The notes under the pieces are model-generated. The model saw only the letters and a program-made list of their open reading frames with translations, made no database searches and was not told the origin of the DNA. A program made the translations under genes and the position numbers. From Saccoglossus kowalevskii (lineage: Eukaryota; Hemichordata; Enteropneusta; Harrimaniidae), in NCBI RefSeq assembly GCF_000003605.2, contig NW_003151255.1, positions 748,429 through 786,194 on the forward strand: a stretch of 37,766 bases of DNA, given 5' to 3'. Position 1 is the stretch's first letter; every line of letters begins with the position of its first letter. Below, piece by piece: positions 5,301 to 37,766 of the stretch.

Positions 5301-5579
5301 GCTAAACATCTGTTCAACAAAGACAGAGCTGTGAATAGCTATATACATACCGGGTTGGCAAGTACAATTCGGAAACAAATAGCTCTTATATATAATTAAA
5401 ACATTTTATTCCACAAGTAAACAGAAGCAACGCTTTCAATGCCAGCGTTACGTTAGATGTGCTCCCCACAACTTTAATCTATCCATAATGCATCAGTAAG
5501 CACTGGCACTGTTGAGATGGTCTACCACTAAAGAACCTCCCAGATTTATCTGCCAATCTTGGAGTTTTAACACATTTTC
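5301..5579. other. No gene recognised
   Basis: Spacer between dispersed repeat copy 1 and the minisatellite. No structure seen. Confidence 0.4.
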
Positions 5580-12117: not shown

Positions 12118-12195
12118 TCATTGCCTAGATTTAATGCGAAGTATAATGCCATTTGGTGGTGACAGGAATCCCATCTTGCCCAGTTCCGGAGGAAT
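12118..12195 (-). CDS. P450 exon 13 (C terminus and stop)
   Basis: 78 nt after acceptor TTTATAG. Encodes [20 protein letters not shown] and ends SRQ with stop TGA at 12120-12118. Confidence 0.9.
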
Positions 12196-18100: not shown

Positions 18101-19865
18101 AGTTACATGAATGATTGGATTGAACGCAGTTGGATTCGATACAATAACAGCAAGCCTCATAAATTTCAAATTAAACCAATAGATTGTGTCATCGTATATC
18201 ACGCCATAGCTTAACTGACAAAAACATGTGACCCGCGGTTGATTTCACATGGAAACGTGCCACAGCACGAGACTACGTATTCGAGACTTTGTATTCGTAT
18301 ACCACTGAAACGCAGAGGATCACGCACCGTTGTTTTACAGGTGCATTGTGGGAATTGTGCCAACTTGAAGGTATAATGGTGAGGCGACGGCCAAATAAAT
18401 GAAACTTGACAGGTAACGATGGTTTATGCCTGTCCTACCTGCTCACAATTTTACTGCTATAATAACAAATAATTCCAATTTTACAGATGAATGTATCTTT
18501 CAGTAAAAGATACGTACTTTGTAGTGCGGTTTCATATCATGAAGAAATGCAAACCATTATGACATTAAAATGATGTGTCACCTGGACAGGTCGGTCTCCT
18601 TGGTTTCAAAGAAATGGATTTATATACATAATGTACACATACCGGATATGATTCAGATAGGTAGCGTTGGTATGTACTGACTAGCATAAGCCTATACTAT
18701 CTGAGGCTGGTGAGGTCACACCTGGTAATATCAGAAGCATTGTAGTATGAATATCGAACATGATGTGCCTCTGATGCAAGTCATTTGATTCAAAATAGCC
18801 GACTGACAGACTTACTAACGGTATTTTAAATTGGTTTACTCTCCTGTAATATTTTGTACGAAGGCAGAAAAAAAGCGCGACGGACTCACTGGAATGCTAA
18901 ATATACAGATAATATAAAGTTTTTTTTTAGTATTCCCCAATCATCGGGAACCACAAATTTGCCATCAACGGCAATAATCAGTCGACCACAGTCGTCAGGG
19001 AACGACAAATTCCCGATGTTTGATAACAATCGTGACTGTGCCATACCATACTATTTTTAGAATAGCTTTTATATTACGAAATCATTGATAATCGGCAACC
19101 TGTAACCAAATATGTAGCCTATATAATATGCGTTTATATCCGTCGATTCAATTCAGTGGTGGCGCAAGGTTGGTGAGCAGACCCCCCTCCCCTCTCCATG
19201 CATAATTTCGTGCCGCCGGCTCTGTAATTTCTTTGTTTGATCATGAGTTACCACGGGGTTAACATGAGATCTGTGTTAACATCGATCTTAAGACAAAGTG
19301 GTCTGGTAAGTTTGAATCGTCAGCACTTCATTTTGAGTCATATTGCCAGTCGCCCCAGTCATAATCGTCATCGTCATCCTCTCAGTCCCATAGTCATCAC
19401 GTTACTGTGTGTATAGAGAGAACATAATATATACACGGCCACCACGACAAAGAAACTAATTTCATATGTACAAGTAAAACGAGCATAATGGCATACTAAT
19501 ATGATACAGTGTGGTGGTGTGACAAGACCACATGCTATTGACACGTTATCAATGACCCAACCGTGAACCATTTGGACTTTACACTACGTAGAGTCAATGC
19601 GCATGTCGCATGCGATTGAACAATTGCATTTGAAATGTATACATAAATACTACTCACAGAAGACTGTTCTTCACACAGTTCACACACGGACAAAGGCACC
19701 GCGTTAATACATACTTGGTCTATGTTTAGGTAGAACATGGCATCTACATAGCTACCACAAAATAATAATCTAGTTTCCTACTTACATGTAAAATAAGCAT
19801 AACGTCATAAAAGCAAGAAACAGGGTGGTTGGTGTGACAATACCGCATGCTATTGATAGGTCCAT
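12118..19865 (-). CDS. Cytochrome P450, CYP3-clade, complete 13-exon gene
   Basis: A haem-thiolate monooxygenase of the endoplasmic reticulum membrane, of the type that oxidises lipophilic xenobiotics and steroids. Minus-strand exons in coding order: 19865-19786, 17966-17873, 17368-17316, 16593-16497, 16352-16236, 15245-15157, 14810-14662, 14085-13952, 13816-13637, 13376-13156, 12863-12726, 12467-12305, 12195-12118. All junctions are in phase; 1593 nt, 530 residues (mammalian CYP3A are slightly over 500). Motifs in order: N-terminal hydrophobic anchor (residues 1-27), hinge [14 protein letters not shown], helix C WRGAR (W129, R133), helix I AGYETT (338-343), ExxR (E395-R398), PERF (449-452), haem loop [10 protein letters not shown] with Cys475. 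Nothing essential is missing. Exons of 94, 53, 89, 149 and 163 nt match the sizes I recall for mammalian CYP3A exons 2, 3, 6, 7 and 12. Residues 285-320 form a charged insertion. CYP3 clade membership follows from sequence and gene structure; the subfamily and substrate are unknown. Confidence 0.93.
12305..12467 (-). CDS. P450 exon 12 (haem-binding loop)
   Basis: 163 nt, donor GTAAAT. Contains [17 protein letters not shown] with the proximal Cys475, and ends PCAETQ in phase 0. Confidence 0.96.
12726..12863 (-). CDS. P450 exon 11
   Basis: 138 nt, acceptor TTGACAG, donor GTAAGC. Encodes [19 protein letters not shown] and [16 protein letters not shown], ending inside the PERF arginine codon. 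Confidence 0.94.
13156..13376 (-). CDS. P450 exon 10 (helix I and ExxR)
   Basis: 221 nt, acceptor TTATTAG, donor GTACGC. Contains the oxygen-activation motif AGYETT and the K-helix ETLR. The 5' and 3' boundaries differ from the mammalian CYP3A exon 10/11 positions I recall. Confidence 0.94.
13637..13816 (-). CDS. P450 exon 9 with charged insertion
   Basis: 180 nt, 60 codons, acceptor TTTCAG, donor GTGAGC. Starts [11 protein letters not shown], as in CYP3A. It then carries a Lys/Glu/Asp-rich stretch of about 35 residues longer than the CYP3A equivalent before [10 protein letters not shown]. Confidence 0.9.
13952..14085 (-). CDS. P450 exon 8
   Basis: 134 nt, acceptor TTTTGCAG, donor GTAAGT. 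Encodes [20 protein letters not shown], corresponding to the CYP3 F-G region, and ends TADSNQ. Confidence 0.92.
14662..14810 (-). CDS. P450 exon 7
   Basis: 149 nt, acceptor ATTGCAG, donor GTAAGT (chosen over a GTATGT seven bases earlier because it keeps phase and the CYP3A exon length). Encodes [20 protein letters not shown] and the F-helix region. Confidence 0.92.
15157..15245 (-). CDS. P450 exon 6
   Basis: 89 nt, acceptor TTTACAG, donor GTAAGT. Encodes [16 protein letters not shown] and EKPVEIK, the helix D/E region. Confidence 0.92.
15651..15986 (+). CDS. Unrecognised 111-codon open frame inside a P450 intron
   Basis: Open frame in P450 intron 5 on the opposite strand, more GC-rich than its surroundings, with a Lys/Arg-rich middle ([10 protein letters not shown]). 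No domain recognised. It may be an old transposon or processed-gene fragment, or chance. Confidence 0.15.
   Translation: MFTYVWPLNTRYSKDTLAGYLSLDVLGVGQYHRAFKLLIPVVHRAAVEKQQKSKKRHKLNIGETNKLIRDSLGMLFRRVSIVSPKCRCFHRLCVLRSENATMFAPENMSTN
16236..16352 (-). CDS. P450 exon 5 (helix C)
   Basis: 117 nt in phase 0 at both ends, donor GTAAGT. Contains [17 protein letters not shown], the W-x-x-x-R haem-propionate motif. Confidence 0.93.
16497..16593 (-). CDS. P450 exon 4
   Basis: 97 nt, acceptor ACATAG, donor GTATGT. Encodes [15 protein letters not shown] through HFGSFVNRR, the beta-1 sheet and helix B region. Confidence 0.93.
17121..17158. repeat. Perfect 12-bp inverted repeat in P450 intron 3
   Basis: CCAAAGACTATA at 17121-17132 and its exact reverse complement at 17147-17158, separated by 14 bases. 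A stable small hairpin on either strand; role unknown. Confidence 0.85.
17316..17368 (-). CDS. P450 exon 3
   Basis: 53 nt, acceptor CACTACAG, donor GTATGT. Encodes [17 protein letters not shown], the segment that in CYP3A reads ..KKYGKVWG, with the same length and phase. Confidence 0.92.
17873..17966 (-). CDS. P450 exon 2 (proline-rich hinge)
   Basis: 94 nt. Acceptor with pyrimidine tract ending CCCGTAG; donor GTAGAT. Encodes [17 protein letters not shown] and the following [14 protein letters not shown]. Confidence 0.92.
18017..18067. repeat. 11-bp inverted repeat near P450 exon 2
   Basis: GCACGGTTTCG at 18017-18027 and CGAAACCGTGC at 18057-18067 are perfect inverted repeats about 50 bp upstream of the exon 2 acceptor, in intron 1. 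Confidence 0.7.
19250..19680 (-). repeat. P450 promoter/first-exon duplicate, copy B (decayed)
   Basis: Related to the functional first-exon region. TCAATAGCATGTGG and GTCACACCACC match exon 1, but a deletion fuses the promoter segment (..GATAACGTGTC) directly to the middle of the exon. This removes the ATG and about 50 bp, and no donor remains. It cannot supply a first exon. Confidence 0.75.
19786..19865 (-). CDS. P450 exon 1 (start, membrane anchor)
   Basis: ATG at 19865-19863 is followed by [10 protein letters not shown] and a hydrophobic run ending TLCLFY. The donor is GTAAGT; it leaves in phase 2 and joins exon 2 to give YIYSTWTF. A TATA-like box lies about 75 bp upstream. Three related but defective copies of this region lie nearby, and only this copy splices in frame. 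Confidence 0.8.
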
Positions 19866-19938
19866 GTTAACTGCATTCAATAGTGTCCTTGCTTCTACGA
19901 CGACACGTTATCAATGACCCAACCGTGAAACATTTGCA

Positions 19939-19945
19939 CTTTATA
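19939..19945 (-). promoter_or_regulatory. TATA-like box of the P450 promoter
   Basis: TATAAAG on the minus strand, about 75 bp before the P450 ATG. The duplicated copy C has TATAAT at the matching distance (about 72 bp) from its own ATG. Transcription start is inferred, not seen. Confidence 0.5.
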
Positions 19946-20556
19946 TTAGGTGGGGTTAATGCGCATGTCTCATGCGATCGAGAAATTGCACAATTCATAT
20001 GCAACACACGGAAGACGGCCACGATTATTATCTTATAGAGGGTGTGTCATCAGAAACTGTACAAAATATTTGCCCCCTTAGGTTTGTACTAATCGATTGT
20101 TTCCACGATGAATTTTCTGTATTCGTTTTTACACTATGTGAAGATTGTTTTCTGCTATTCCATTTCCAGTTCTGTCATCAGCCAATGCAGAGTTTCCATC
20201 GGTGACGCGTGAAAATAAATCTAACAAAATAAAAAAACATTATGGTAATTTATGGTAACATACATAATGTAAGTTTGTAAAAAGTAACGTTGGCCGGTGA
20301 TTGATGATCTTTTTTCTGGCTTGTATTCTAAAAACTCTTGTCACACCGCCAACGATGTGAGTGATACAGGGCGGTTCGTAAAATATTTATCATCACCAGG
20401 GCAACAATAATGGCCAAGACCCCGGGCCAAAACCGTAAGCTAATATGACAGTTTTTTTATGTGTTTCATAATTAATAATCGGCAACTTGACATGTAACAT
20501 GCTTTTTGACGCTGATGTGAAAACAACCGACGATTTTCTTGTTAGATAATGTATTA

Positions 20557-20790
20557 GACTATTAGAAGGTAACATGGGATGAACTCAAAGGTCGATCTGA
20601 GACACAACGCTGTCTGGTAAGTTTGAATTGTCAGCGCTTCTTTTAGGTGCAGGAAACTCTCATTGTCGACCTTCTCCGAGTCCTCATAAAAATCGTCCCC
20701 TAGAATAGCTTCCCTTTCATAATCGTCATCGTCCCAGTCAACAAATTCACTCGGAAAACGATTTTCTTTCGCTTGGACATAGTCGCCGCG
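20557..20790 (-). other. Acidic 78-codon open frame within copy C
   Basis: A stop-to-stop frame without Met contains FVDWDDDDYEREAILGDDFY and ends FEFIPCYLLIV. The corresponding part of copy B keeps the DDDDY core but stops soon after. No homology recognised. It could be a relic exon captured in the duplication or a compositional accident of the repeated GATGAC. Confidence 0.25.
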
Positions 20791-21200
20791 TTACTGCATG
20801 ATCTATTCGTAAATGGAACATGGCATCTACACAGCTACCACAACTAATGTATTTTACATGTAAAATAACTATAATGACATACAGACACGAAATACAGTGT
20901 AGCTGGTGTAACAAGAACGCAAGCTATAGATAGGTCCATGTTAAAATTCAATATCGTCTTTGCTTCAACGAAGATACGTTATCGATGTCACGACCGTGAA
21001 CCGTTTGGGCATTATATCAGGTAGGGTCAAATCATATGTCACACACTATCAAAACATTGCACGATTCATATGCAATATATACGTACTACACAGGACACCA
21101 CTAATGTTTATTTTGTGAACGCATCGTATTGAAAAAGATGTGTATAGTAATAAAAAATACATTAAAGTTAACTGACACGTAAAAATGAATCTAACAAAAT
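20570..21200 (-). repeat. P450 promoter/first-exon duplicate, copy C
   Basis: Retains ATG (20939-20937), MDLSIACVLVTPATLYF, a TATAAT-like box and a GT donor at 20857. The exon (20939-20858) is 82 nt instead of 80, so splicing to P450 exon 2 would shift frame and stop within ten codons. A decayed alternative first exon, or an exon that serves another purpose. Confidence 0.75.
20858..20939 (-). pseudogene. P450 exon 1 relic in copy C
   Basis: Begins MDLSIACVLVTPATLYF, clearly related to the real exon 1. Two extra bases upstream of the donor break phase. Confidence 0.7.
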
Positions 21201-21264
21201 ATAATAGTTTTATCGTAAAATATACACATGCATTCTATCCTGTTTAAATTATTTTATTATTTTC

Positions 21265-21375
21265 TGTTAACTGCATCCAATGTCATCTTTGCTTCCACGA
21301 ATGACCCGATCGACCGTGGACCATTTGGACCTTGCATAGATAGGGCCAATGCGCGTATGTAAGTGTATTGATGCG
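21265..21375 (-). repeat. P450 promoter duplicate, copy D (fragment)
   Basis: Matches only the promoter/5'UTR part: GTTAACTGCATCCAATG, TTTGCTTCCACGA and ACCGTGGACCATTTGGAC. No exon 1 sequence follows. Confidence 0.65.
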
Positions 21376-21743
21376 TCCAGGGCAAAAACGTGTCCAATAT
21401 GTAACGATTTCCATTGAAACATGTTAACCACCTGCTTTTAATTTCATTCCTTTTTATACCAGATTTGAAGCTGTGGGAATTAAATATAAAAACAGTCCCG
21501 AGTTCATATTGCAGCCTGGATGTGTACCCGGCCCCTGTGCGTCAAGTGTTTAACGTAATGAAAAATTACACAATGACTGCTGGTTGGTATCAAATGTATG
21601 TTTTGAGAAACGTAATGTAATATATGAAAATCGAAAAATGACAGACGTGTCTAACCGTGACATTGGATATAGCTGAACAATAACATATATTTAAAAATGA
21701 AAATCTCCCACCTGCAAATCATTCACTACAAAATAAAATGATT

Positions 21744-21824
21744 AGTAAAGCACATTCGCGCATGGTTAGTACTTGCATGGGAGACATTCTGAGTAAACAA
21801 GCTGTTGGAATTTATTCCTTTTCT
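21744..21824 (+). pseudogene. 5S rRNA 3'-half-like segment, unit 1
   Basis: AGTAAAGCACATTCGCG, then TGGTTAGTACTTGCATGGGA, closely resembles the box A to box C part of animal 5S rRNA genes. The 5' half is missing and the box A region is the most degraded of the three. Confidence 0.7.
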
Positions 21825-22672
21825 TTCATCACACACATGGTAAAAATATAAAGCAACGTTCCTGCATTCTTTCTTACTGTGATGTCAATCATTTACAGTG
21901 GAGTATCGTGGAATTGTATATTTTTAAATTAATGAAACTTTTCAAATTCCTTCTAATTTTCAAGAATAGGTTGATGCTATCGGCTCGCAGTAGGATTTAA
22001 ACTGCTAAAACACCGTGCAAAGTTGTTTAAAGTGAAAGCAAAATTGTGCAAAGTTGGTACATGTATTTGTATTATATATGACCTAAACTGTTGATATACA
22101 GAAACGCGCAGTTGTAATGTCGACAACTTTAATAAAAGCCAGTAGACAGCAGCCTATATATGTTCACATTATCTGACTGTAAAATGTGCGAAAACAGTGT
22201 GCAAAGTTGGAAAAACGATTAAAATCTTGGCGGCGTTGCTTGTATATTTAACATAAGTCATTGTCATGACAACCCCGCAGTTAAATTTCGAAAACATTAA
22301 GTAAATGTCTCTAAAATGCCTCACGTATATGCGATTATCACAATAGCGAAACGAGAAATCAACAACAAAATGCTTACAAAGTTGAGAAAAGCGATTTCAA
22401 AGTAAGTAGATTCATTCAGGATTGTTACCTGTGATGTCATACTAACAAGTCCTACAGTTAAAAGTTCGAAAATATGAATAGACATTTTTTAAATTGCCGT
22501 TAAACAAGCGCAGTGTTACTCGAAGCTTGTAGAGGTCATAGGTCAATTCTAGAAGGTACTTGTGCAAGCGATGTCAATTTTAAAACATTCAAAAACATGA
22601 AATAGTCACCAATTCGAATAAATTTCAAATAACTAATGCTGCTGTGTAGTTAGATGGTCGACCAATTTCGAA

Positions 22673-22753
22673 AGTAAAGCACAATCGGGCGTGGTTAGTA
22701 CTCGCATGGGAGACTCCATGAGTGAACAACCCGTTGGATATTTTACTTTTTGT
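22673..22753 (+). pseudogene. 5S rRNA 3'-half-like segment, unit 2
   Basis: AGTAAAGCACAATCGGGC, then TGGTTAGTACTCGCATGGGA, followed by GACTCCATGAGTGAACAACC and a T-rich stretch that could act as a Pol III terminator. Box C has one change relative to units 1 and 3. Confidence 0.75.
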
Positions 22754-23597
22754 TTCATCACACACATGGAAACGTATAAGGCAACGTTCTTCTATTCTTT
22801 CTTACTGTGATGTCAATCATTTATTATAATAGTAGAGAATCGTAGATTTTCAGTAACTTTTAAAATTAATGGAAAGTTTTCAAATTCCCTCTAATTTTTA
22901 CGAATACATTGTTGATGCTGTCGGCTTGTAGTATGTTTTAAACTACTAACACACCATGCAAAGTTGCTCAAAGTCATTGCAAAGTTGTGCAAAGTGATTG
23001 CAAAGTTGGCAGATGTATTTGTATATATCACCTAAGTTATTGGTATACAGAATCGCGCAGTTGTAATGTCGACAACTTTAATAAAAGTCAGTAGACAGTA
23101 GCCTATATATGTTCTGATTATCTGAATGTAAAATGTGCAAAAACAGTGTTCAAAATTGGAAAAACGATTGAAATCTTGGCGGAGTTGCTTCTATATTTAA
23201 CCTAAGTCTTTGTCATGACAACCCCACAGTTAAATTTCGAAATCATTAAGTAAATGTCTCGAAAATATCTCACGTATATGCAGATTATTACAATAGCCAA
23301 CCGAGAAATCGACGACAAACTGCTTACAAAGTTGTGAAAATCGATTGCAAAGTTGGTAGATTCATTAAGGATTGTTACCTGTAATGTCATAAAAACAAGT
23401 CCCACAGTTAAAAGTTCGAAAATGTGGATAAATATTTCGTAAATTGCTGTGGAATTAGCGCAGTGTTACTCGAAGTTTGTAAAGGTCACAGGTCAATTCT
23501 AGAAGGTACTTGTACAAGTGATGTCAATTTTAAAACATTACAAAACGTGAAATAGTCGCCAATGCAACTTGTTGTTAGATGGTCGACCAATATCTAA

Positions 23598-23678
23598 AGT
23601 AAAGCACAATCGGGCATGGTTAGTACTTGCATGGGAGACTCCCTGAGTGAACAACCCGTTGGATATTTTACTTTTTGT
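23598..23678 (+). pseudogene. 5S rRNA 3'-half-like segment, unit 3
   Basis: The best preserved: AGTAAAGCACAATCGGGCA, TGGTTAGTACTTGCATGGGA, GACTCCCTGAGTGAACAACC, then ATATTTTACTTTTTG. The box C region differs from the usual animal 5S sequence by a single base in 20. No 5' half of 5S is seen. Confidence 0.75.
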
Positions 23679-24350
23679 TTCATCACACACATGGAAACGT
23701 ATAAGGCAACGTTCTTCTATTCTTTCTTACTGTGATGTAAATCATTTATTATAATAGTAGAGAATCGTAGATTTTCAGTAACTTTTAAAAATAATGGAAA
23801 GCTTTCAAATTCCCTCTAATTTTTACGAATACGTTGTTGATGCTGTCGGCTCGTAGTAGGTTTTAAGCTATTAACACACTATGCGAAGTTGCTCAAAGTG
23901 ATTGCAAAGTTGACAGATGTATTTGTATATATGACCTAAGTTGTTGGTATACAAAAACGCGCAGTTGTAACGTCAACAGCTTTAATAAAAGCCAGTACAC
24001 AGCAGCCTATGGATGTTCACATTATCTGGCTGGAAAATGTGAGAAAACAGTGTGAAAAGTTAGAAAAAGCGATTGAAATCTTGGCGGAGTTGCTTGTATA
24101 TTTAACATAAGTCATTGTCATGACAGCCCCGCCGTTAAATTTCGAAAACATTAAGTAAATGTCTCGAAAATACCTCACGTATATGCAGACTATCACAATA
24201 GCGAAATGAGAAATCGACGACAAACTGCTTACAAAGTTGTTAAAATCGATTGCAAAGTAGGTAGATTCATTCAGGATTGTTACCTGTGATGTCATATTAA
24301 CAAGTCCCACAGTTAAAAGCTCGAAAATGTGAATAAATATTTCGTAGATT

Positions 24351-27300
24351 TAACAGAACAAGACCACAATCAATTATATTAATGTAATTATAATATATTT
24401 TCGTTGTTTCATGTTAATTTTTTGAAGTCTATCCGAACATTTTGATGACCTGGCCACATATGAATCGATAACAGATTTCCAATTATAGGTCTAACAGAAA
24501 CTTGATGTTGATAAATGTTGATTAATTAAAATTAAGCAATTACAATACTGAATTTCAAAATAGATTAGACAGAGAAGAGGTGGTTTTGCCTTGTATATAA
24601 ACCTAGAAATTGCATATACAGTGAAAAGTGATTTAAATTCGTTTAATGTTAACAGTCAAATTGAATCTGCCTTAATCTACCTAATCACTCAAATCATAAT
24701 TTCACAAACGAATTTGTACATATACTTAACAGCTATTCATTAATTCACCTATAGACAAACCAACCATAACCACATTACACTCGGTTACACTGATTGATAA
24801 TATATTCATCAACAGCTTACAACCCTAAACCAGTAATATTTTACTTACAAATATCTCAAACCGTCTTCCAAATTATATTTGCCAACAAAACGTCATCACC
24901 CACAATGAAGCAAAATTCATTATGCAAAATCATTTTCCGCTAAGATTGTGAAAAGCTCTCCATTCGTTATGACACACAAACTTAGAGAGATGTTATTACT
25001 GATAAAAACAAACAAAGCATATGATGCATTTGATAACAAATTGGATTCTGTTATTGATAAGTGCATTCCAATAAAACAATGTGATTATAAAGAATGTAGT
25101 AAGTGTTAAAACTAATGTAATGTATTTGATTGAACCACTTACACACATTTACCTCTGTGAAGTGGACAAGTTCCACTCCAATATTCATAAAAAAGAAACC
25201 GCATATTCTGAACAACTATGGTCCATTACAAGATCTGTCACGTATTTCGAAAATATGAGAACGTGTAATTTATAACAGAACAGTTCATATTCACTGATGA
25301 ACATTACTGTATTAGGGCCATGATTAACACAGTTTAAATTAAAATAATTTAATTGGTTAAGAAATTCACAGTGCAGTACAAACAGTTTATTACCAAATAA
25401 AAGAATTAAATTTACGATAATGTACAGAAAATTTGTCATATGTTTGACATGTTTTAACAATGGCATGCTGAAGATAACCTAGGTGTCGTGCAACAAACAA
25501 CTAAATAATGAAATTTTAGTGATGATATTCACGCCATGTATCAACAATGTAAACAGATGTATTCACAAACTAACATTTAAATATACAAAGTTAGTGCGAT
25601 GTGAAGTAAATTAACTCACTCACGGGTTCTCGCTGCCCTTTTCTCAGAGCTTGTAAGCCCAAATTCTACGGCGAATATAAAAATCCACTCTTATAATCAC
25701 AAAACATTTCGTTGTAAAACACATATAACCCTGGGAAAAACAGTTGATTAAGTCGACGCAGACAGACTTTTCTCCGTCTGGCACAAAACAGCCACTGCTT
25801 TGATATTTATTCGTGGCAATTCGTGACAATTAACAATTTTAAATGTTTGCATGATTCTCCCTCCACGGTCGATGAAGACCATATATTTTAATGTATTAAC
25901 TAGCATAGTTGTTACTTAGGATTTGATGGTTCAGCGGTGTCCCCGATCAAGCATGATTTGGATCCAGTGATTCAACTTGTCTCAAATTATTTTAGATGTT
26001 CTTGTTGCGGATCAATATTTCTGGTCATAATTACCCTCTCAATCACAATTGCGATTTGCAATAGCCTCTATACTAGTGACACACATCTTATCAAAAATCG
26101 CGGTAACCGTTGTCTAAATATTACAAATATCTGATAAAATACAAGTTATACTATATATAATTAACGGATCGTAATGTATTAGAGATAAAAATCAGGTCGA
26201 AATGAACCTTTTTATTTGTGTTCTAATGTCCACAGTAATGTGATATTTATTTATGCACTTGGCAATTAAAAACGTTATTGTATTGCTCATGGTCGATAAA
26301 ACGTTCAGTTCAAACAGGCGGTTGTCATATCAAATACGGATAATCAAATAGTGTTCGGATATTATGGGAAATGTGCTTGTATTGTATTGTATACAACATA
26401 TTTCACGTTTTACAAATCACTTCAAAGTCAGTAGTTATATATATTATGCGTTCAAGGTGGATTAGGAGCTTCGAATTCAAGCAAAACACGCTGAAGTCCG
26501 TATGTGTAGAGAAATCCAAAACTATTTGGCATTGTTATCACATTAAATATAGTGTGTACACATTCGGTGTATATATTATACAAATAAAAAAAACTAGAAC
26601 TAAGCGTCTTTGGTTCAGCCAACCCAGCATTAATACGGTGTCAACTAAGGTATTCTTGAATGCGACCATCTATTACCTCTTTCCCGCGAATGTCTACAGT
26701 AGCAGAAAATATAAAGATGATTACAATTCTAAGGTAGCCACTTTAATTCATATCAGGGATCAATAACTTCATTAGTGTATGTCAGTTTAGAATTATTGAA
26801 GTCAGGTCATCTTCCGACATGATGAAATCTGCATTTGGTGTATTCGCCTCGCAGTTTCACTCGTAGCTTGCATTCATTGGGGGGAAATTCGCCAGGCTGC
26901 AAATGTCTCGTCAAATATGAGAGCAAAAGCAACGATGATGCCTTTTGATTTGATTTTTTTAACTTGAACCCAAAAATTCGAATCTAATATCTGAATCAAA
27001 ATAACAAAATTAATAGTAGCAATATCAACTATTAACATAATAACAACAACGCGAAAAATATGGCGAGTGTCAAAAATTGTGGTATGTTTCAGTATATATG
27101 TCAATATTTGGTACAAAAAACGACTTATCCACTTTAACAAATAACTGACACGTCCACACTTAATGTAGTTGCACAGCAAGTATATGATTATGTGTATTGC
27201 AGCTTGTTATAGTGTAGTAAAATAATAGCTATATATTAAATGATATATGTTGTCCTTTAATGTATTAATACATATTAGTAATAATAATGCTGTTTCAAAA

Positions 27301-27686
27301 ATGTAACGCGGTCATCGTGATTATTTTGTCAAAGGTTCATCGTGGATGTGTCGGTCAATACGTGGACATAAGATTGAGCTGTCACCGTGGTTTAATTATT
27401 CAAATTAATATAAATGAAACAAGGCGTGTTTCTTGTTGGTAACATGATACATCATACTCAATGTTATTGCCAAGAATCAACTCAATAATACATTTTGTCG
27501 GAAGTAAACACATTAAATTACACGTGTTTTGGCGTGAAGTGTAATATTCGTCATTTGTCATGAATGTGACCTTCTAGTAACAGATATGAATATAGATAAT
27601 TGTTTTGACGTAGTTACATTAATTAAACGGGGATCAATATCATGTGCTAGGGTCGACTAAATGACATTAGCTACCCTTCTAGCAAG
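24351..27686. other. 3.3-kb gene-free region
   Basis: AT-rich intergenic sequence between the 5S-like array and the chimeric lectin gene. Frames of up to 131 codons exist but are Ile/Tyr/Lys-rich translations of AT-rich DNA with no domain. The promoter of the lectin gene should lie at the right end; I see no clear TATA box there. Confidence 0.5.
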
Positions 27687-28010
27687 ATGAAAGCTATTAT
27701 TGGTGTAATCGCTGTGTTACTTTTATCGCCTGGATTTTTGCAACTCAAGGAGGATAATTCATCAGAAGAAAATTCATCGTCTTCTGAAAAAGATGAAATC
27801 GAAAGCAACGAAGAAAATATGCAAATTGAAGACCATGGATTCGAATTGTATACATTCAAATCAGTGATAGAAAATGTCTCGGATACTTTTCTGGGCGGTA
27901 GAAACAACAACATCACCACCACCATCAAGAGCATCATCAATAACAATGCCAGCAGCATCAACATTACCACCAGCAATAATAATAATAATAATAATAACAA
28001 CAACAACAAG
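27687..28010 (+). CDS. Lectin exon 1: signal peptide and low-complexity region
   Basis: MKAIIGVIAVLLLSPGFLQ, then a stretch rich in Glu/Ser (EDNSSEENSSSSEKDEIES) and an Asn-rich end with 11 consecutive Asn. The ATG follows CAAG. It ends AAG before GTAAAG in phase 0, matching exon 2. Many N-x-S/T sites. Confidence 0.7.
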
Positions 28011-31000
28011 GTAAAGTAAATTGGAGATGTCTTACAAATTGGCTAATTGCAATTTTCAAACCAATACAATACAATACAATACAATACAATACAATACAAT
28101 TTCAGTCAATCCAGCCAACACTTTTTCTACTGATCTTACATAATGTTCTTTTATTTATAATGATGATTGTCTATTTAAATGTTTGCAGCAGTGTACTGAT
28201 ACCAAGCCATACACAGCTGTGTGTGAAAAGAAACCATGTGAGCCGCCATCCACTTGTGAACCGTCGTGTGGTCAAGACAACTTCATATGCATATGCCATA
28301 CGGATGTTTTTACTGGGTCTTACTGTGATAAGACAGCTATCTACTCCGGTACAGACTAATAACACATAATCCCTGGGAGACATTTTTGTCGAAATCATGG
28401 TGTGATATATGTATGATTTGGTCCTCCCGATTGACATGAATATTAAAAATTGATATAGTTGAAAACCCATTTTGTACTATTTCATACGGGGTTCATACAT
28501 TTAAAAAGCAATTGTTAGCACACTGACAAAATGAAGGCTTTTCGCGTGAATATGATGACGCTTAATACCGAATAGCGAGTGGCGCATTATCGCGTGCTTT
28601 AGTCATGTGGTATCGTTTGATATTTGAACGGTTTTGTGCCTTGTGTCGTATATACATTATCGAATAACTTATTATTCTTTAAATATAGTATCACAGTAGT
28701 ATTGTGTGTCGTATATTCATTGGTCTAGAGAAATTGACACCCAAAATTTTGAAATGTACTTTATGTCACTTATTTCTTGTTTGTTTTTGTTTATTCTCAG
28801 AGAACGTGACTTACATTGGATGCCACAGTGATGTTTCATCAGGTAGTTATCAACAGTCGACCTGGGTGTATATAGACTCCGTATCCCTTACACCTGGCAT
28901 ATGTGTTCAACAGTGTGCTGAATATGGAACTTATTTTGCGACACTTTTCGTTAATGACCACGGTGTAGTGAAATGTAAATGCGTTAACTTCTATGATAAA
29001 ACCAGGCCAATCAGTGAGTCTCTGTGTGTCACACCATGTCCGGGTAATACACTTTATTATTGCGGTGGAATTGAGAGTGAAGCTGTTTATTACACCGGAA
29101 TAGGTACGTCAATGTGATGATCATGCTCTGTCGTCAGGGTAACCACTGTCCCCGTATGCATTAACAATTAATTCATTAGCATTGTTTCAATTATACTTAA
29201 AGGGTGGCAGTCGTCGTGCCGCGTCCTGTTCGACATGGGACTCATAGCGACGTATACAACGCGTATAAAATACATTGTTTATTTACATGAAATTCGAACA
29301 AGCGCTGCGCGACGACCACCGCGCTTTAATGTAGGTCTTTTTATATATATATTTTCGTAACATTGCATTGTCGATGCTTTCGTTTTTTATCATTTAGGTT
29401 TTCCAGAGCTCGGTAACTGTATTTTCGGTGATATGAAGAGTTTCTCCTATGGCACCCAATGTTTTGGGATATCACCTATACCACGACCATGGATGGAAGC
29501 TGAAATAAATTGTATCACCAACGGAGGAAACTTAGCCACTATATATGATCAAACAACACTGGTGTAGTATTTCTTCTGTTTTATTAAAGTAGTATATATG
29601 TTCATTCCCAACTTGTGATGGGCATTTATGGGCAGTATTTTCTCAGAAATATTCCCACCGACATGGACCCTTAGTACTACATATATTACGTATGTAGTAA
29701 TTTTTGTTATTTAAGGGCGGTAGTCGTTGTGTCGCGTCTCGTTCGATATGGGACTCATAGCGACGTATGAAACGCGTGTAAAATACATTGTTTATTTACA
29801 TGAAATTCGAACACGCGCTGCGCGACGACCACCGCGTTTTAAAAGTAATGAATTTGGGTGATATATAAATTGTTAGTGTTTTTTTTTTTTTCTTTTTTTT
29901 TTCTTTTTTTTTTGGAAAATCATTTCATAATCAGTTGATTAGATTCTAGAACCGTTACTTGAATACTTTGGCATCACATGATCTGCTGTTTATATATTAA
30001 AATATTGTATTACCCTTGTATTGGTTTTGTGACGCCTTCCGCAATAGACAATTCACTTATTTTTAAATGTGTAGAATTATTAATTCCATGATAATGGTAT
30101 GGTGTCTGCCGTCCCTAATTATCTCCATGATGTAAACGGTAGAGGTAACACTTGCGTATTACGTCTTTTCTCAGCAAGCAATAATATACTTCTTACATCG
30201 AAACTATGATGGTGGTATATTGACTGACTTTGCTATCGGTGGTAACAACTTAGACACTGGCGAGACTTACAAGTATACCGACGGAGTAGAGGGGATTCTA
30301 GATCCAGTCTTAGATTTGTTTGGTGTTGGTGATCCATCCGGTGACTTGCATCATTGTGTGGGTACGTAGAAACATCACTATCGTATTTTGTATTGTGTAT
30401 ACGAATATTTGTTCTTGGCACCTTTGACCAAAATGGCCGCCGAGATTTCGTTGAGAGAAAGACACGAGACTTGATTTTACCCCTCAAACATCATACCATT
30501 CTCACCCGTCATATCGTATAAATGTTCAGTTGATCTATCTAAACATGTGGTATTTGGAACAGTGGACGCAATGGCGGGGAGAATGAAATAGTATTGGAGG
30601 GATTGCGGCACCATTTGCGTCTTGTGACTAATCCTAATTCGACCTGCGCTTAGAGTGTTTTGGATAGCATTTGTGGAGGATTAATTTAATGGAACAATTT
30701 GCGTGTGGTCCTCGCCTGTTACATTGTTTTTATCAGTTGGCGGATATTCGACTCAAAATACTCATCACTTCCTTTCAGGACTGTTTTCTATATTCGGTTA
30801 TAAGATGGGAACATACAATTGTTCTACCAGCATCTGTTTCATATGTTCCTCTGGTAAATACATCTCTATATACTTTCATCAGTCTATAATAATAAGGTTA
30901 AGTTCAAGTTTCTCGTGGAATGTTGCAATGTGTCTGAATGTATAGCTTTAAATTAAAAAATAGCATGCTAGGTATGACACATAATTTAGTGAAAACCCAA

Positions 31001-34000
31001 CGAAACAAATGTCATAATTTAATCAGATTGGCTAAATGTGTAATTTACTTTTTACCAGATGCTATGAACATCAAGTACACATTAAACAAGACGTCAAGTG
31101 TGACCACAGTGAATCAAATAACAGTGTTGGATAATGTCACCATATGTACATGGGTGAAACTATTACGTCCTGGTTGTTTATATGCATACCAAAGCACGAA
31201 TGGAACTGTTGGCATCGGGGTGTACCAGACCGAAAATAACAGTATCAATGTATACATAACATCGATAAAAATTACGATAAATGCGGTAATCGGTGATGAT
31301 GGTTGGCATTCCATTTGTACATCCTGGTCGTCGACGCTCGGTCGGTTGGTGATGTTTAAAGATGGAGTCTTTGTAGAGAAATTCGAAAATCTTCTTCTTG
31401 AAACACAAGTTTCAACTACTGGACACATTGTCATAGGCCGATTCCAACGCACATTAACATCGAACGCACGTGGTTTCACGGGTGATATCTCACAATTCAA
31501 CGTATGGAATGTACTTTTGAGCGAGGAGGACGTTAACAACTGTAGATGGGACATCACGTTAGGTGGAAACCTATATGCATGGAACAGTAACAATGTGTTA
31601 CCACCACAAACGTACTGGGCTTCTTTCTTTGAGGGAGTCGATGGTAAGAAACAAACATGCAGTTGCCAGTTATGATGATAATACATATTCACTATGGCTT
31701 TGTAACAATACCAATCAATGATGTGTATATAATGTTATAAGTTAAAATTACAGAATATCACGAATTGAATTACGTAAATGTATTATATCGATTTGTTGCA
31801 ATGTCACAGAAGAAGAAAACAACGGTTTCAAACGTAATCACCAGTGTTTACTTTAGTTAATACTTGTTCACCCACTTGCAATATTATTGTTGATGCCTTG
31901 CTCTATAATTTGCGATTGAGCTATTAAAACGAGTTTTGCTTTTAGTAATATACTAGGTCTTTCACAAACCATATTTTGCAGATAATACTAACGAAAGTTT
32001 GAACAATCCCACTACGTCCTACCATTGTTTTGATGCATAGGATTGTTTGTAAACAGCGTATCCATCTCGTTGTTAGGTATTCCATGTGGTTATAATGGAA
32101 GCGGCATTCTGTATCGAGATACGTGTTATCATTTAGTAGAAGAGGCACGTGATTGGTTCACAGCTAATATGGCGTGTGTGCCGCGCGGTGGTAGACTGAC
32201 AAGTATAGACGTGGGTGACGTACAGGTAAACAAATATATGGTTGATAACGTGCAATGCATTCGTTCATTCATTTATTCATTCATACGTTACAATATACAC
32301 ATTTATTCTTAGACGAGTAAAACACACATAACCGAATAGGCAATGGAGCTTTCTCCATAGTTAGATGGGTTAGAAAATTAGTAATGTATCGATAAAAAAT
32401 AATAATAATTATTATTCATCCTTTGAAATTATTTGACACAAATAATATTGTAGCAAAACAATATTAAATATATAAAACACAATGTAAATAATAAGTACAA
32501 ATAACAAAATCTAGTTTTTGTTTTTAATTTCAAACAAAATAATTATGAACATATTCCTGAATCTGTTTACTTTAAGGTTTCCACGTTTACTTTAACATCC
32601 AGAAGCTAGTATATTTATTAATTTTAGTCAAATTAGATTTCACCGTGTTTATATTTTTTTAATATATTTGTAAAAGAAAAGGAATAGTGGATTCAAAGTT
32701 AACTAAAACCACTTTCCTTTAAAATATTGTTAGCTGATGACATTTGCATTTGCCGTTTTCAGTTTTCCCAATAAGCGTATTATGTAGTATTATCATTCGA
32801 GAGTTGTCTCATACAAAAACAATATTTTAGTAGTATAATTTATAGTAAAGACATTCCGCCAAGCTCACTTCTAGGCAGCATTGCATGTGTGTCTGTTTAT
32901 TCCTAAGTGTTTTTTTGCAGAAATGTAGGTGCACTGAAAATTTATATCATTATTTGATTGTCACTATTTTCTTGTACGGTTTTCTTAAAACGGATGGGTC
33001 GTCACATGCGCGTGCGGGGAAATTGAGTTCCAAGCGACGATAACAACACACGCGAAAAACGCAAAGGATTTTTAATACAGATCGAAACAGAAATGTTACT
33101 GGGGTCATTATTATCTCTTTGCTTATATAGATGTGTTTATATAATTATATTTCAAGTATCAAGTATGATGACGTGGTGATCTAGATGATAACATCTTTTT
33201 TCAGTCTTTTCTCAGGCGTCATGCTCTGTTGACAGGAAGCAATATTGACTGGTGGTTCGGTGTGTACAAAGGACTGTTTTCATTGAGTACCACAAGAAAC
33301 ACATACGTGGGTGGTTATACTGTATTCACCAATCAGGTCGCAGAACGCGGAGACTGTGCGGGTAAAACAATATTTTTTATTTCTTTTAGAGTTTCCAGAC
33401 TTGCGATATTATAGGAAACTATATTAATACATCTAGAAGGCAACAGATCAATCTTGTTTAACTGAATATTGCTTTCAAAGAACATTGATAAAGATCTGTA
33501 GCCGATTGAAGTGTTAATAATCAAATTATAGAAAGAAAAAAAATAACATTAAACCAGCAAAATATTTCATTGTTTTTACATGAAGAATGGTGCCGCTGAG
33601 GGCGGTATCACATTCTTAGTGCCAACATTTCAAACCCCTTCTAGTCATATATGGATACACCAAACAACTAGCAGTCCTGTTTAATTTGATATAAAATATT
33701 GAGCAAATGACCTCCGTAATTGAAACATGTTAGAAATAAATGAGCTACTACAGAAAGTACGCCCATATGCTGGCGTATAATTATAAACAAGTGAATTGTA
33801 ATGCATGTTTTATTTTACGTTACATAGAAATGAACTTCGAGTACAATATGTTTTGGTCGTTGGAAAACTGTTCTGAGGAGAATTTCTTTATTTGTCAAGA
33901 GGGTAAGTAAGTCGCGGCCATGTTGCATTCTTTTGTACAAATATGGCGAGGTACTTGTACATCTTGTACTGGTATGTTATATATCAAGTTGTGTCATCTT

Positions 34001-36722
34001 TATTTAACTAAATTTATACGATATATTGCTAATATTTTGCGCATAATATTTGTCATTGTTATAAATATGAAACAGAAAAGCATATTGCAGGTTTAGAATA
34101 CATTTTCCTGGTGAATTGACTTGATGTGTCAATCTGCGCTCACAGTTAACCAATTCTCTCTCTATTTCTGTCTACCTCGCTTTGTTGGTGTTATTCAACG
34201 TGTCATAGTGTACAACTGTTTCTTTCCGTGACTGACCACTCTTTAATGCATGTGTAGTAAATATATATTTACTTTGTGTGTTTGGTTATGGGAAATTTAA
34301 TGCGATCGCTCCCCTATTGTCTGTTTACCAATATCTCCGCGTCATTATGCCATGCTGGAGACGTATTTGAGAAGACAAAAATTAAATTAATCTTTTATTT
34401 TATTTTGTATCATCGTCTTTTTCAGATATCGATGAGTATGGGTGTCCGTTTGGTGAGTGAATATATCACGTTTAGGCTCCATGTGGGTCAGTAATACAAT
34501 TCCAGTAGGTAACACTAATGCTAACTAGATCGATATCAGAAATATCGTCCAGCCAAAATACGTGTGTGCCATGCAATCAGACAATAGAAATCAAGTTTTT
34601 GCATGTCAAATAATGGGTTACAGTAGTGGTTGGGAAGAAAGAAAAGATGGAAAGATGGTGATGAGTGTTTGCTTGTAATTTATGAAACACTTTTGTAAAT
34701 GTCACGTGACCGCAGTGCGATAGTTTATTGCATAAACCACAGTTTCTCTATCCCAGAGGGACTGTGCATAAACCTCTGAGCTATATGCCTCCGCGGCGAA
34801 AACGACAGTGATTTCACCGATAATGAAACTATTACAATGGGTAGGAAATCTTAAGATTGAGAGAGCTGAGCGCCAACATTTATGTTTCTTACGACTAATG
34901 TATAGTCCTGTCCGCGTATAGCAATGTTGATAAATATCGGGACGATGTTCAAGGGAAAAAAACATGCATTGAAAATGAGCGACGTTAGACAACGCAATAA
35001 ACATCGAAACATGGACTGAATTGGTGAAAAAGATATTAACAGTTATTAAATTTTGTACAATTGAACAGAGAAAAGCATCTTCCCTTATAAAAATCAACAA
35101 CATTTTTGTATAGACTGCAACTGTTGGGTTTGTAATTGCGAAGATTTCTGTTGACTTGGAATGCTTGGTCAGGCCTGGTTTTATCCCATGTGTTTTTGAA
35201 GATAGTAAATTTAGGGTCGCAACCGGCATTGTCGACTATAGTAGATACAAGTGATAGTATGTCTGTTAGTATACGGATAAACTCAGGACAGTGCCATTAC
35301 ACCACTTTCATCTCAATTGCCTACTTCAAAATTCACAGTCAGATCTAGTTTTTAGTAACATAATTACTTCAAATTCGCTATATTTCCTGAGCTTCGAGTC
35401 CTAACACCATGCAACACCGAACTCACATTCATCAGGGCTCATTTCACCAAATATACCAGACACCTGTTCCTCATACTTTCGTTGAGACTTCATTGGTCAC
35501 AATAAATTGAACCGATACGTCATGACTTCAATCTCATGAAAGTGAGAAAGTAATATAACATAATTTATGTAATTTTAATGTTGTGACACAATGTTTATTT
35601 CTGTTTTAGATTGGGAACATTTCAATGGTAGCTGTTACCATATTGTTAATGGAAGGCACGAGACCGATTTCGTGGACAGCCAGCGACTATGCAATGTGTA
35701 TGTAATAAAATCAGTTATTTTTTTATCGAACCATGGAGGTAAAATACATGATCGAACATTGAGCATTGAGCAAAATATTTGTGTTTAGCTCCATAGGCGT
35801 TTAGCCGAATCATGTCAAAATACCTTCCTTATTTCATACACTGGCAACATTTCTGTGTATTAAATATACTGATTTACATTTAAATGCTTATAATAGAGCT
35901 GGTGCTCAGTTGGTGCATATAGATACTAATGAAGAATCAAAGCACGTAGTTGGATTGATAGCTAAAACAATACTGGGATGTGGCGTTGTATGGATAGGTA
36001 AGTTTGTTTCTTTTATTATAGAAAATAAAACCATACTTCAGCATACATCTTATGCTAATGTGTTCAGCACAATACTGGATTAATGTGTGCGTACTTCAAA
36101 TAAAGCGCCATAGTCGTCACGTCGTGTGCGTTATTTCGTCTACAGTGCTTTCAGAAATGCTGTTTACATAATTTACGCTTTAATAAACATAAAACATTTA
36201 TAAATTTGAAAACTGAAGTTGAGCAATCAGAATGATCGCCATGGCGACACCGCGGATAAATATATGCTCCTGAATGGGACGACAAGTCTGAGCGTGTGCG
36301 CAGGCGTATCGTGAATTATATCACTAGTATAGTAGTTTATAAATTAATAAACGCTGCTCGGACTGATAAATATGATATATAGAAGATAATATTTGGTAAT
36401 CGTAGTTATTTAGGACTACGATTATCAAATATTATCTTCCATATATCATATTTACTAGTATACTGTATAGTGAAACGTTTGGTTACTATGTTATAAATTA
36501 TTTATCAAATAAGTAAATTGCTTTTCTGAAAGCAAATAATTGCATTTGGCACACGTCGAGCTGTGCTAGGGGAGTATATATACATAGTTAATATTTATAT
36601 GTATACACATATCATTTCTTTTATTAGCTGGTAATGACGATAACTGCTTGCTATTAAAGTGCGATGAGGACCAGGTGAAAGCTGATTGTCTGGAAAAGCA
36701 TGCTTTTGTTTGTGAAATATAG
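27687..36722 (+). CDS. Secreted chimeric protein: EGF-WSC-CTLD-pentraxin-CTLD-CTLD, complete 14-exon gene
   Basis: Exons: 27687-28010, 28189-28348, 28801-29103, 29398-29561, 30175-30361, 30779-30853, 31059-31643, 32077-32225, 33205-33361, 33828-33902, 34426-34452, 35610-35697, 35897-35997, 36628-36722. All junctions keep phase; 2490 nt, 829 residues. Order: signal peptide (1-19), acidic Ser/Glu and Asn-rich low-complexity region (20-108), EGF-like (about 109-156), WSC (about 163-262), CTLD1 (263-404), pentraxin (405-600), CTLD2 (600-726), linker, CTLD3 (736-829). No transmembrane segment or GPI-type tail is seen, so it should be secreted and, from the many N-x-S/T sites, glycosylated. The domain types point to extracellular carbohydrate or protein recognition, possibly immune. 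None of the CTLDs has EPN, QPD or WND, and the pentraxin lacks the EQD calcium loop. I know of WSC with CTLD in polycystin-1, but not of this combination. The first exon is the least certain. Confidence 0.87.
27975..28007 (+). repeat. Coding AAT/AAC microsatellite (poly-Asn)
   Basis: 33 bases of AAT then AAC codons encode 11 Asn just before the exon 1 donor. Likely length-polymorphic without frameshift. Confidence 0.9.
28062..28100. repeat. (CAATA)n microsatellite in intron 1
   Basis: About eight perfect copies of the pentamer, 50 bp behind the exon 1 donor. Confidence 0.95.
28189..28348 (+). CDS. Lectin exon 2: EGF-like domain
   Basis: Acceptor TTTGCAG (a second CAG three bases later is possible). 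Cysteines at 110, 120, 125, 131, 135, 142, 144 and 154; the last six fit the EGF pattern with C-x-C near the end (CICHTDVFTGSYC). Phase 0 in, phase 1 out. Confidence 0.85.
28801..29103 (+). CDS. Lectin exon 3: WSC domain
   Basis: Acceptor TTATTCTCAG, donor GTACGT, phase 1 to 1. YIGCHSD, LTPGICVQQCAEYGTYFAT, CKCVNFYD and CPGNTLYYCGG are the classical WSC landmarks with all eight cysteines. WSC domains are putative carbohydrate-binding modules. Confidence 0.93.
29197..29329 (+). mobile_element. TTAA MITE in lectin intron 3
   Basis: 133 bp including TTAA at both ends. Terminal inverted repeats TTAAAGGGTGGCAGTCGTCG and the reverse complement of TTAAAGCGCGGTGGTCGTCG. About 90% identical to the copy at 29711, same orientation. 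Confidence 0.88.
29398..29561 (+). CDS. Lectin exon 4: CTLD1, N-terminal half
   Basis: Acceptor CATTTAG, donor GTGTAG (weak). Encodes YGTQCFGIS, PWMEAEINCITNGGNLATIY: the CTLD first strand and helix. Phase 1 in, 0 out. Confidence 0.88.
29711..29842 (+). mobile_element. TTAA MITE in lectin intron 4
   Basis: 132 bp with TTAA at both ends, sister of the element at 29197. Most differences between the two are C/T changes. Confidence 0.88.
29879..29913. repeat. T-rich low-complexity tract
   Basis: Almost pure T with two interrupting C residues, 36 bp downstream of the second MITE, in intron 4. Confidence 0.95.
30175..30361 (+). CDS. Lectin exon 5: CTLD1 core and loop
   Basis: Acceptor TTTTCTCAG, donor GTACGT. 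DFAIGGNNLDTGETYKYTDG replaces the usual WIGL core. The loop ends GDPSGDLHHCV, so DPS stands where EPN or QPD would be. Phase 0 in, 1 out. Confidence 0.88.
30779..30853 (+). CDS. Lectin exon 6: CTLD1 last strands
   Basis: 75 nt. Acceptor CCTTTCAG, donor GTAAAT. Encodes LFSIFGYKMGTYNCST and CFICSS, the closing disulphide strand. Confidence 0.85.
31059..31643 (+). CDS. Lectin exon 7: pentraxin domain
   Basis: A single 585-nt exon, phase 1 to 1, acceptor TTTTACCAG, donor GTAAGA. TICTWVK, DDGWHSICTSWSSTLGRLVM, GHIVIGR, GFTGDISQFNVWNVLLSEED and YAWN are pentraxin landmarks. Cys434 and Cys491 match the conserved disulphide pair. The signature is slightly off (H-S-I-C rather than H-x-C). The loop before GFTGD is short and lacks the EQD calcium ligands. 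A symmetric exon, hence easily shuffled. Confidence 0.93.
32077..32225 (+). CDS. Lectin exon 8: CTLD2, N-terminal half
   Basis: 149 nt. CGYNGSGILYRDTCYHLVEE, then WFTANMACVPRGGRLTSID. Same phases (1 in, 0 out) as exon 4, suggesting CTLD1 and CTLD2 arose by duplication of a three-exon block. Confidence 0.9.
32985..33075 (+). mobile_element. Partial TTAA MITE in lectin intron 8
   Basis: Left half only: TTAA, then GTCGTCACATGCGCGTGCGG and AAATTGAGTTCCAAGCGACG, matching the 1136 element at roughly three quarters of positions. No right inverted repeat. Confidence 0.65.
33205..33361 (+). CDS. Lectin exon 9: CTLD2 core and loop
   Basis: 157 nt, acceptor TTTTTTCAG. DWWFGVYKG is the WIGL-type core; the loop ends FTNQVAERGDCA without EPN or QPD. 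Phase 0 in, 1 out, like exon 5. Confidence 0.9.
33828..33902 (+). CDS. Lectin exon 10: CTLD2 last strands
   Basis: 75 nt, exactly the length and phase of exon 6. FWSLENCSEENFFICQE closes the domain. Donor GTAAGT. Confidence 0.9.
34426..34452 (+). CDS. Lectin exon 11: 27-nt microexon
   Basis: Acceptor TCTTTTTCAG, donor GTGAGT, phase 1 to 1. Encodes DIDEYGCPF, supplying the first cysteine of CTLD3 (CPFDWEHFNGSCYH after splicing). Confidence 0.75.
35610..35697 (+). CDS. Lectin exon 12: CTLD3 start
   Basis: 88 nt, acceptor TCTGTTTTAG. WEHFNGSCYHIVNGRHETDF and DSQRLCNV. The donor GTATGT is chosen among three GTs because it joins exon 13 in phase as CNVAGAQLVHID. Confidence 0.8.
35897..35997 (+). 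CDS. Lectin exon 13: CTLD3 helix 2 and core strand
   Basis: 101 nt, donor GTAAGT. AGAQLVHIDTNEESKHVVG and GCGVVWI, ending exactly at the WIG core. The long-loop exon expected next was not found. Confidence 0.85.
36099..36260. mobile_element. Degenerate TTAA-type MITE in lectin intron 13
   Basis: The left end TAAAGCGCCATAGTCGTCAC resembles the MITE terminal repeat of the elements at 1136 and 29197. A weaker inverted match ends GACACCGCGGATAAA near 36260, giving a similar size (about 160 bp). Confidence 0.4.
36368..36453. repeat. Near-perfect 39-bp inverted repeat (long hairpin)
   Basis: Arms 36368-36406 and 36415-36453 pair with only two mismatches around an 8-base loop. It is AT-rich. It could be a fold-back element or a pre-miRNA-like hairpin. 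Flanking ACTAGTATA words occur at about 36323 and 36454. Confidence 0.9.
36628..36722 (+). CDS. Lectin exon 14: CTLD3 end and stop
   Basis: Acceptor TTTTATTAG. Encodes GNDDNCLLLKCDEDQVKADC and HAFVCEI, stop TAG at 36720. It supplies the closing cysteines of CTLD3. Confidence 0.88.
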
Positions 36723-37216
36723 TCCCGGGAATATAGTACATAAAGTTGTACGAACTTTTTCAAAAGCAATACTACAGGTGTACCCAAGCTGTTGGTTTGT
36801 TATATAATTTGATCTACTTATTCTAGGATTTCTCTATCAAATATTTTTCTTGCTATTATGTGTGTATAATTATAATGTGATAACTGAATATATCGACTTG
36901 ATATAAAATGTTGATCCAAGCTCAAAGATAGATTGCCTTCATTTTGTTATTGTATATGTGTGTTTCGGTTTGTTCGTGTCAGCCACTTCTCGTTTTTGGT
37001 AAAAAGTGATATTTCCACAATCAGATTACTTTGATATATTACTTTGATATGCATAGGTACTACAGGCGGGCCTCTCTCAGATTTGCTCATTTCAAGATAC
37101 CTTCAACTCTTTAATTGAAATGTGCATTGCTAACATGGGAGCTATCTGTCGAGAGGCTGCTTGTTTAACATTAAAATTGTCTCAACCATATTGATTTGGA
37201 TACAAGTCAAATCTGC
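36723..37216. other. 3' flank of the lectin gene, no gene seen
   Basis: Expected to hold the 3'UTR. No AATAAA is evident in the first few hundred bases, so the polyadenylation site is not assigned. Confidence 0.4.
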
Positions 37217-37766
37217 TAAGATAGTGTCTTGATTTGGGTGAGCGATAGGGCGAGTGGAGGGATCACTCGTCTTTGAAAATAAGGTCTGATGTAAGGTTTG
37301 ATGATGTGTACTCGCTTTATAAGATAGTGTCTTGATTTGGGTGAGCGATAGGGCGAGTGGAGGGATCACTCGTCTTTGAAAATAAGGTCTGATGTAAGGT
37401 TTGATGATGTGTACTCTCTTTATAAGATAGTGTCTTGATTTGGGTGAGCGATAGGGCGAGTGGAGGAATCACTCGTCTTTGAAAATAAGGTCTGATGTAA
37501 GGTTTGATGATGTGTACTCTCTTTATAAGATAGTATCTTGATTTGGGTGAGCGATAGGGCGAGTGGAGGGATCACTCGTCTTTGAAAATAAGGTCTGATG
37601 TAAGGTTTAATGATGTGTACTCTCTTTATAAGATAGTGTCTTGATTTGGGTGAGCGATAGGGCGAGTGGAGGGATCACTCGTCTTTGAAAATAAGGTCTG
37701 ATGTAAGGTTTGATGATGTGTACTCTATAAGATAGTGTCTTGATTTGGGTGAGCAATAGGGCGAGT
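37217..37766. repeat. 103-bp satellite, more than 5 copies, continues past the window
   Basis: The word ATAGTGTCTT recurs at 37221, 37324, 37427, (ATAGTATCTT) 37530, 37633 and 37732: period 103 four times, then 99 through a 4-base loss. Units are almost identical, so the array is young or homogenised. Each unit has the inverted repeat CGAGTG..CACTCG around 7 bases. Confidence 0.97.

Follow-up and report, generated by a model that had tools for sequence, protein, structure and literature searches.

According to the accessible part of PMC10140915, most metazoan proteins with C-type lectin-like domains (CTLDs) stem from species-specific arrangements, and bivalves have unique CTLD architectures in which WSC is among the added domains. 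The bivalve proteins resemble the protein described here in that CTLDs and WSC are combined with other recognition domains in a lineage-specific arrangement, but pentraxin, the further domain type found here, has no occurrence in the main text of that source as far as it is accessible. Human PKD1 also combines WSC and a CTLD in one protein, while several of the sea urchin REJ proteins (SpREJ) have them apart (PMC1934368, accessible part). Polycystin-1 and the SpREJ are membrane proteins with PKD, REJ, GPS and PLAT domains, none of which is present in the protein described here.

The best PDB relatives of the pentraxin-like exon (exon 7) belong to NPTX1/NPTX2 and the long pentraxins, whose presumed calcium-site stretch and signature histidine are absent here; they also differ in that the exon 7 domain is joined to WSC and CTLDs. 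The pentraxin-like domain of the adhesion GPCR G4 (8b55) is without GQEQD in the aligned stretch, as here, but it is part of a receptor whereas a secreted chain is predicted for this locus. SVEP1/Polydom, like the predicted protein, is secreted, multi-domain and extracellular and has a central pentraxin domain. Its own domains are vWFA, Sushi, HYR and EGF, however, and WSC and C-type lectin have no occurrence in the accessible text of PMC12549020. The terms 'WSC domain' and 'pentraxin' co-occur in the accessible text of PMC4581086 and PMC5792016. No protein with the order WSC-CTLD-pentraxin-CTLD-CTLD was seen in full-text searches of the literature, the partial coverage of which makes this weak evidence of absence. 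Searches for relatives by sequence pattern gave no match in viral contigs and 21 matches, none of them a relative, in prokaryote genomes (both are non-animal collections). The combination of a WSC domain, a pentraxin-like domain and three CTLDs looks unusual.

The locus is found in Saccoglossus kowalevskii, in a stretch of 37,766 nt (contig NW_003151255.1, positions 748,429 to 786,194) that is referred to as the window and whose numbering is used throughout. The gene is on the plus strand at 27687-36722, where 14 exons are spliced in phase to give 2490 nt, encoding 829 amino acids and a stop codon. The 14 in-phase exons proposed by a sequence-only reading were recovered when the model was rebuilt, with the same length of 829 residues. 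All 13 introns, which range from 178 to 1157 nt, have GT-AG ends. Stops are found at 6.4% of positions in the intron sequence; compared with this baseline, the pentraxin exon, open for 195 codons, has p ~2.5e-6 and the WSC exon, open for 101 codons, has p ~1.2e-3. The exons were picked for openness, so the product of p over all exons is no test.

In a profile-HMM check of the 829 residues, WSC and Pentaxin on single exons and Lectin_C on the whole protein were above the Pfam cut-offs. An unspliced scan of the plus strand recovers WSC and Pentaxin and misses Lectin_C, because the CTLD exons are split. No NCBIfam family was found for the model at E ≤ 0.1, and Pfam rows below cut-off on single pieces (Conotoxin, Usher_TcfC, Sialidase, Chordopox_A33R, Man-6-P_recep and UL45) were disregarded. 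The upstream plus strand (17690-27687), searched for exons with a known domain, contains no Pfam family at E ≤ 0.01. The phases, the open frame and the signal-like start argue for a single, exon-shuffled gene with a probably secreted product, in agreement with the initial reading, and the gene could reach past, or differ from, the 14-exon model.

Exon 1 (27687-28010; phase 0 out), identified from the splice model and hydropathy, encodes a signal-peptide-like start and an acidic, Ser/Asn-rich sequence with a poly-Asn end, the latter encoded by an AAT/AAC repeat (a coding microsatellite). The hydropathy pattern at the N-terminus fits the signal peptide that had been predicted. A mean hydropathy >1.6 over 19 residues is reached only by windows that begin at residues 1-4 and 781-782; those at 781-782 fall within the core of the third CTLD (CTLD3), and no clear second membrane-spanning segment is predicted in the model. 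A crude signal filter, set after exon 1 had been seen, was passed by none of 89 first-ATG open reading frames (at least 40 amino acids, starting outside 27600-36800). Exon 1 is the least certain exon because no Pfam family was found in residues 1-82 and because it ends in a microsatellite. It holds six of the 15 N-glycosylation sequons of the model.

Exon 2 (28189-28348; phase 0 to 1), also from the splice model, is cysteine-rich and EGF-like by eye only. Its assignment as EGF found no profile support, with no Pfam family at E ≤ 10 for two trims of the exon. The order of its six cysteines is plausible by eye, and the gap between the last two is one residue longer than in the usual EGF six-cysteine pattern. 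The last part of exon 2 aligns over 17 residues with the beginning of WSC (53% identity; E between 8e-4 and 2e-3); the shared stretch is at 28294-28344 in exon 2 (CHTDVFTGSY) and at 28821-28871 in the WSC exon (CHSDVSSGSY). This likeness may be due to chance or may hint at a kinship of exon 2 to WSC rather than to EGF.

Exon 3 (28801-29103; phase 1-1) encodes a complete WSC domain with eight cysteines and a CGG motif. WSC (PF01822) matches this single exon with 39.3 bits (cut-off 27.8) over positions 1-82 of the 82 in the profile, which bears out the domain assignment made initially. Eight cysteines were counted, and the spacings C-x3-C, C-x-C, C-x3-C and C-x7-C and the CGG motif were read by eye. 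A PDB sequence search with the exon gave no relative, only a single unrelated row (E 0.41). Among the modules, the WSC domain is the only one in which the diagnostic features are preserved. The cysteine numbers match those of Wsc1 in the accessible part of PMC9024836, where WSC is assigned the PAN/Apple fold and where SiWsc3 is cited as a member that binds glucan and Kremen as one that binds protein.

The first two CTLDs are each encoded by three exons. CTLD1 is formed by exon 4 (29398-29561; first part, phase 1 to 0), exon 5 (30175-30361; middle, phase 0 to 1) and exon 6 (30779-30853; last part, 75 nt, phase 1 to 1), and CTLD2 by exon 8 (32077-32225; first part, phase 1 to 0), exon 9 (33205-33361; middle, phase 0 to 1) and exon 10 (33828-33902; last part, 75 nt, phase 1 to 1). 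Both trios were assigned by Lectin_C and by alignment to PDB CTLD chains. Lectin_C (PF00059) matches the whole protein with 58.4 bits in two stretches; when taken alone, CTLD2 scores 31.8, CTLD1 21.6 and CTLD3 19.6 bits (cut-off 22.6). Of the three CTLDs originally proposed, CTLD2 therefore passes by itself, while CTLD1 and CTLD3 are just under the cut-off yet align to PDB CTLD chains. The best single-CTLD chain for CTLD1 has E 7.9e-5. In the PDB search with CTLD2, a chain containing two copies of NKG2D ranked first (E 9.2e-12); among single-CTLD chains the best were bitiscetin alpha (E 1.2e-6) and NKG2D (4pdc, E 7.7e-6). Bitiscetin alpha and NKG2D are protein binders. The motifs of calcium-dependent sugar-binding C-type lectins are EPN/QPD and WND; a motif search found no EPN, QPD or WND within the three CTLDs, and a lone EPS match is in exon 2. 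Snaclecs are termed non-sugar-binding in the accessible part of PMC6468738. A 133-nt repeat, 90% identical, flanks exon 4 in both introns (29197-29329 and 29710-29842) and does not occur a third time in the window.

Exon 3 (WSC), exon 7 (pentraxin) and the trios of CTLD1 and CTLD2 all begin and end in phase 1, as is to be expected of extracellular modules that spread by shuffling. CTLD1 and CTLD2 share 31% identity over 48 amino acids (E ~1.6e-4); in both, the phases are 1-0-1-1 and the final exon has 75 nt. The match between CTLD2 and CTLD3 is weak (E 0.013 to 0.017) and the phases of CTLD3 differ. This pattern may be read as one internal duplication, giving CTLD1 and CTLD2, and a separate third module.

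Exon 7 (31059-31643), which is located between the CTLD1 and CTLD2 trios, encodes a whole pentraxin-like domain in one phase 1-1 exon, identified from Pfam and PDB matches. Pentaxin (PF00354) matches exon 7 alone with 57.9 bits (cut-off 25); Laminin_G_3 is also above its cut-off (42.4 bits against 27.6), with an E-value weaker than that of Pentaxin. The finding of a whole pentraxin in a single symmetric exon, reported from the sequence-only reading, thus holds, and it is unsurprising because vertebrate long pentraxins likewise have the pentraxin domain in one exon. The closest PDB chains are NPTX2 (E 1.1e-15) and NPTX1 (E 1.4e-13). The exon was matched to 13 sequences, with alignments from five of the 13. 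In all four pentraxin alignments shown (NPTX2, NPTX1, the SAP-like 3flp and human SAP), GQEQD, which we take to be the pentraxin calcium site, is replaced by GRFQR, and a three-residue gap follows 4-5 residues after it. The pentraxin signature, H-x-C-x-[ST]-W, has no match in the model, where SICTSW carries Ser instead of His. An AlphaFold prediction of the pentraxin exon alone had a pLDDT of 34.5 and is useless as a model.

CTLD3 is encoded by exons 11 to 14. Exon 11 (34426-34452; phase 1 to 1) is a 27-nt micro-exon (CPFDWEHFNGSCY) that provides the CP opening the domain. Exon 12 (35610-35697; phase 1 to 2) encodes its first part and exon 13 (35897-35997; phase 2 to 1) continues through the WI(G) motif, both assigned by Lectin_C and PDB CTLD chains, and exon 14 (36628-36722) encodes the C-terminal part and the stop, assigned by alignment to agglucetin beta-2 (3ubu_B). 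The interval contains 67 cassettes that are open and phase-compatible, and exon 11 alone among them yields CPxxW when joined to exon 12; 19 of the 67, exon 11 included, place a cysteine within their last six residues. Its acceptor and donor are good by eye, and the alignment to CLEC4C (4zes) begins inside it. Exon 11 is the strongest local argument for a single gene.

CTLD3 has a PDB CTLD match at E 1e-7, and several of its PDB matches, which cover the first half of the domain, are sugar-binding lectins such as DC-SIGN. Eight cysteines are kept. In the comparison with agglucetin beta-2, the aligned pieces stop at chain residue 69 (query 73) and restart at 96 (query 77), such that the long loop has three residues against 26 (chain 70-95) in this best match; the C-terminal piece is weak alone (E 4.6). 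The missing loop falls around the exon 13-14 junction. A search of intron 13 for AG..GT cassettes of 30 nt or more with an open frame and compatible phases gave six, and none of the four listed (the longest per start) was loop-like by eye. As none of these four fits, the long loop of CTLD3 is taken as absent. A MITE-like hairpin at 36362-36459 (45-nt arms, 91% complementary, 8 nt between them) is located in this same intron, where long-loop coding would be expected.

Outside the gene, frame scans of both strands at E ≤ 0.01 covered 1-7691, 7690-17687, 17690-27687 and 27768-37766, and revealed no family beyond p450, RVT_1, a Lectin_C match at the left edge and the WSC, Pentaxin and Laminin_G_3 of the gene itself. 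A second CTLD gene probably has exons on the minus strand near the left end of the window (~340-700), with Lectin_C at 598-696 (18.8 bits, under the cut-off of 22.6) and a next exon, recognised by eye, near 340-475 (FWIGV...GGSLTYSNW). A cytochrome P450 is encoded on the minus strand, with Pfam p450 at 12266-12481 and 13158-13373 (110 and 83 bits, in two frames) and further P450-like open reading frames by eye as far as 14872. A reverse transcriptase on the plus strand (1752-2120; RVT_1, 56 bits) is found in open reading frame pieces at 1722-3187, apparently a retroelement with interrupted frames. A tandem repeat with a 103-nt unit (37217-37766; 5.4 copies, 97% matches) continues off the end of the window.

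Because the canonical calcium and sugar residues are lost and the WSC domain is intact, calcium-independent binding or adhesion is favoured, with WSC as the contact. We give a probability of about 0.5 to the reading that the gene is a lineage-specific product of exon shuffling and encodes a secreted extracellular protein, probably N-glycosylated, that functions in this way. A polysaccharide or glycoprotein would be contacted mainly through the WSC domain. The pentraxin-like domain and the CTLDs would act as modules for protein binding or self-association that need no calcium, with the Asn/Ser-rich stretch at the N-terminus as a glycosylated spacer. The role would probably be adhesion or recognition in matrix, mucus or body fluid, and not classical calcium-dependent sugar reading. 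The sequence itself shows in which order the modules stand, that the start is signal-like and that canonical residues are lost; what is said of secretion, ligand, oligomerisation and tissue is our inference. Unconventional binding of calcium or sugar may be compatible with the loss of the canonical residues, and the sugar-binding lectins among the PDB matches of CTLD3 count against the favoured reading. It is suggested more tentatively that the gene represents an undescribed extracellular family in which WSC, pentraxin-like and CTLD modules were brought together by phase 1-1 shuffling and the folds of both pentraxin and lectin type have become calcium-independent binders.

A soluble innate-immune protein recognising several microbial ligands, possibly via WSC and unconventional sites, appears rather doubtful. 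The multi-ligand pattern recognition claimed in the sequence-only reading is weakly favoured by the domain types, which are typical of recognition proteins, but the pentraxin and the CTLDs are without the canonical calcium and sugar residues. The combination of WSC and CTLD in human PKD1 would also be consistent with a diverged member, or an N-terminal fragment, of the polycystin-1/sea urchin REJ family whose membrane part has been lost or is outside the window. Such an origin is improbable, as no PKD, REJ, GPS or PLAT is found in the model or in the unspliced plus-strand scan of 27768-37766, a second transmembrane segment is not clear and a stop ends the last CTLD exon. Pentraxin has no occurrence in the accessible part of PMC1934368.

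The remaining alternatives concern the gene itself. A division into two genes before the pentraxin exon, which would require a first exon close to intron 6 (205 nt), is not favoured: there is an in-frame ATG at 30938, but the sequence after it has no hydrophobic character by eye. It is also improbable that the model is partly wrong, for example in taking exon 1 as the first exon, or that the gene is decaying, with CTLD1 and CTLD3 eroding. The absence of a Pfam family and the microsatellite in exon 1, the Lectin_C scores of CTLD1 and CTLD3 and the truncation of CTLD3 would fit such a state; against it are 829 codons without a stop or frameshift, the GT-AG ends of all introns, the micro-exon that completes the start of CTLD3 and the eight cysteines retained in that domain.

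The preferred reading, that of a secreted, calcium-independent binding or adhesion protein, overturns nothing, since PMC10140915 (accessible part) describes lineage-specific combinations of CTLDs as the rule. If the order of modules is true and unreported, the gene would illustrate clearly how modules are shuffled as phase 1-1 units. It would also mean that two calcium-dependent recognition folds have been retained as scaffolds after their canonical sites were lost.
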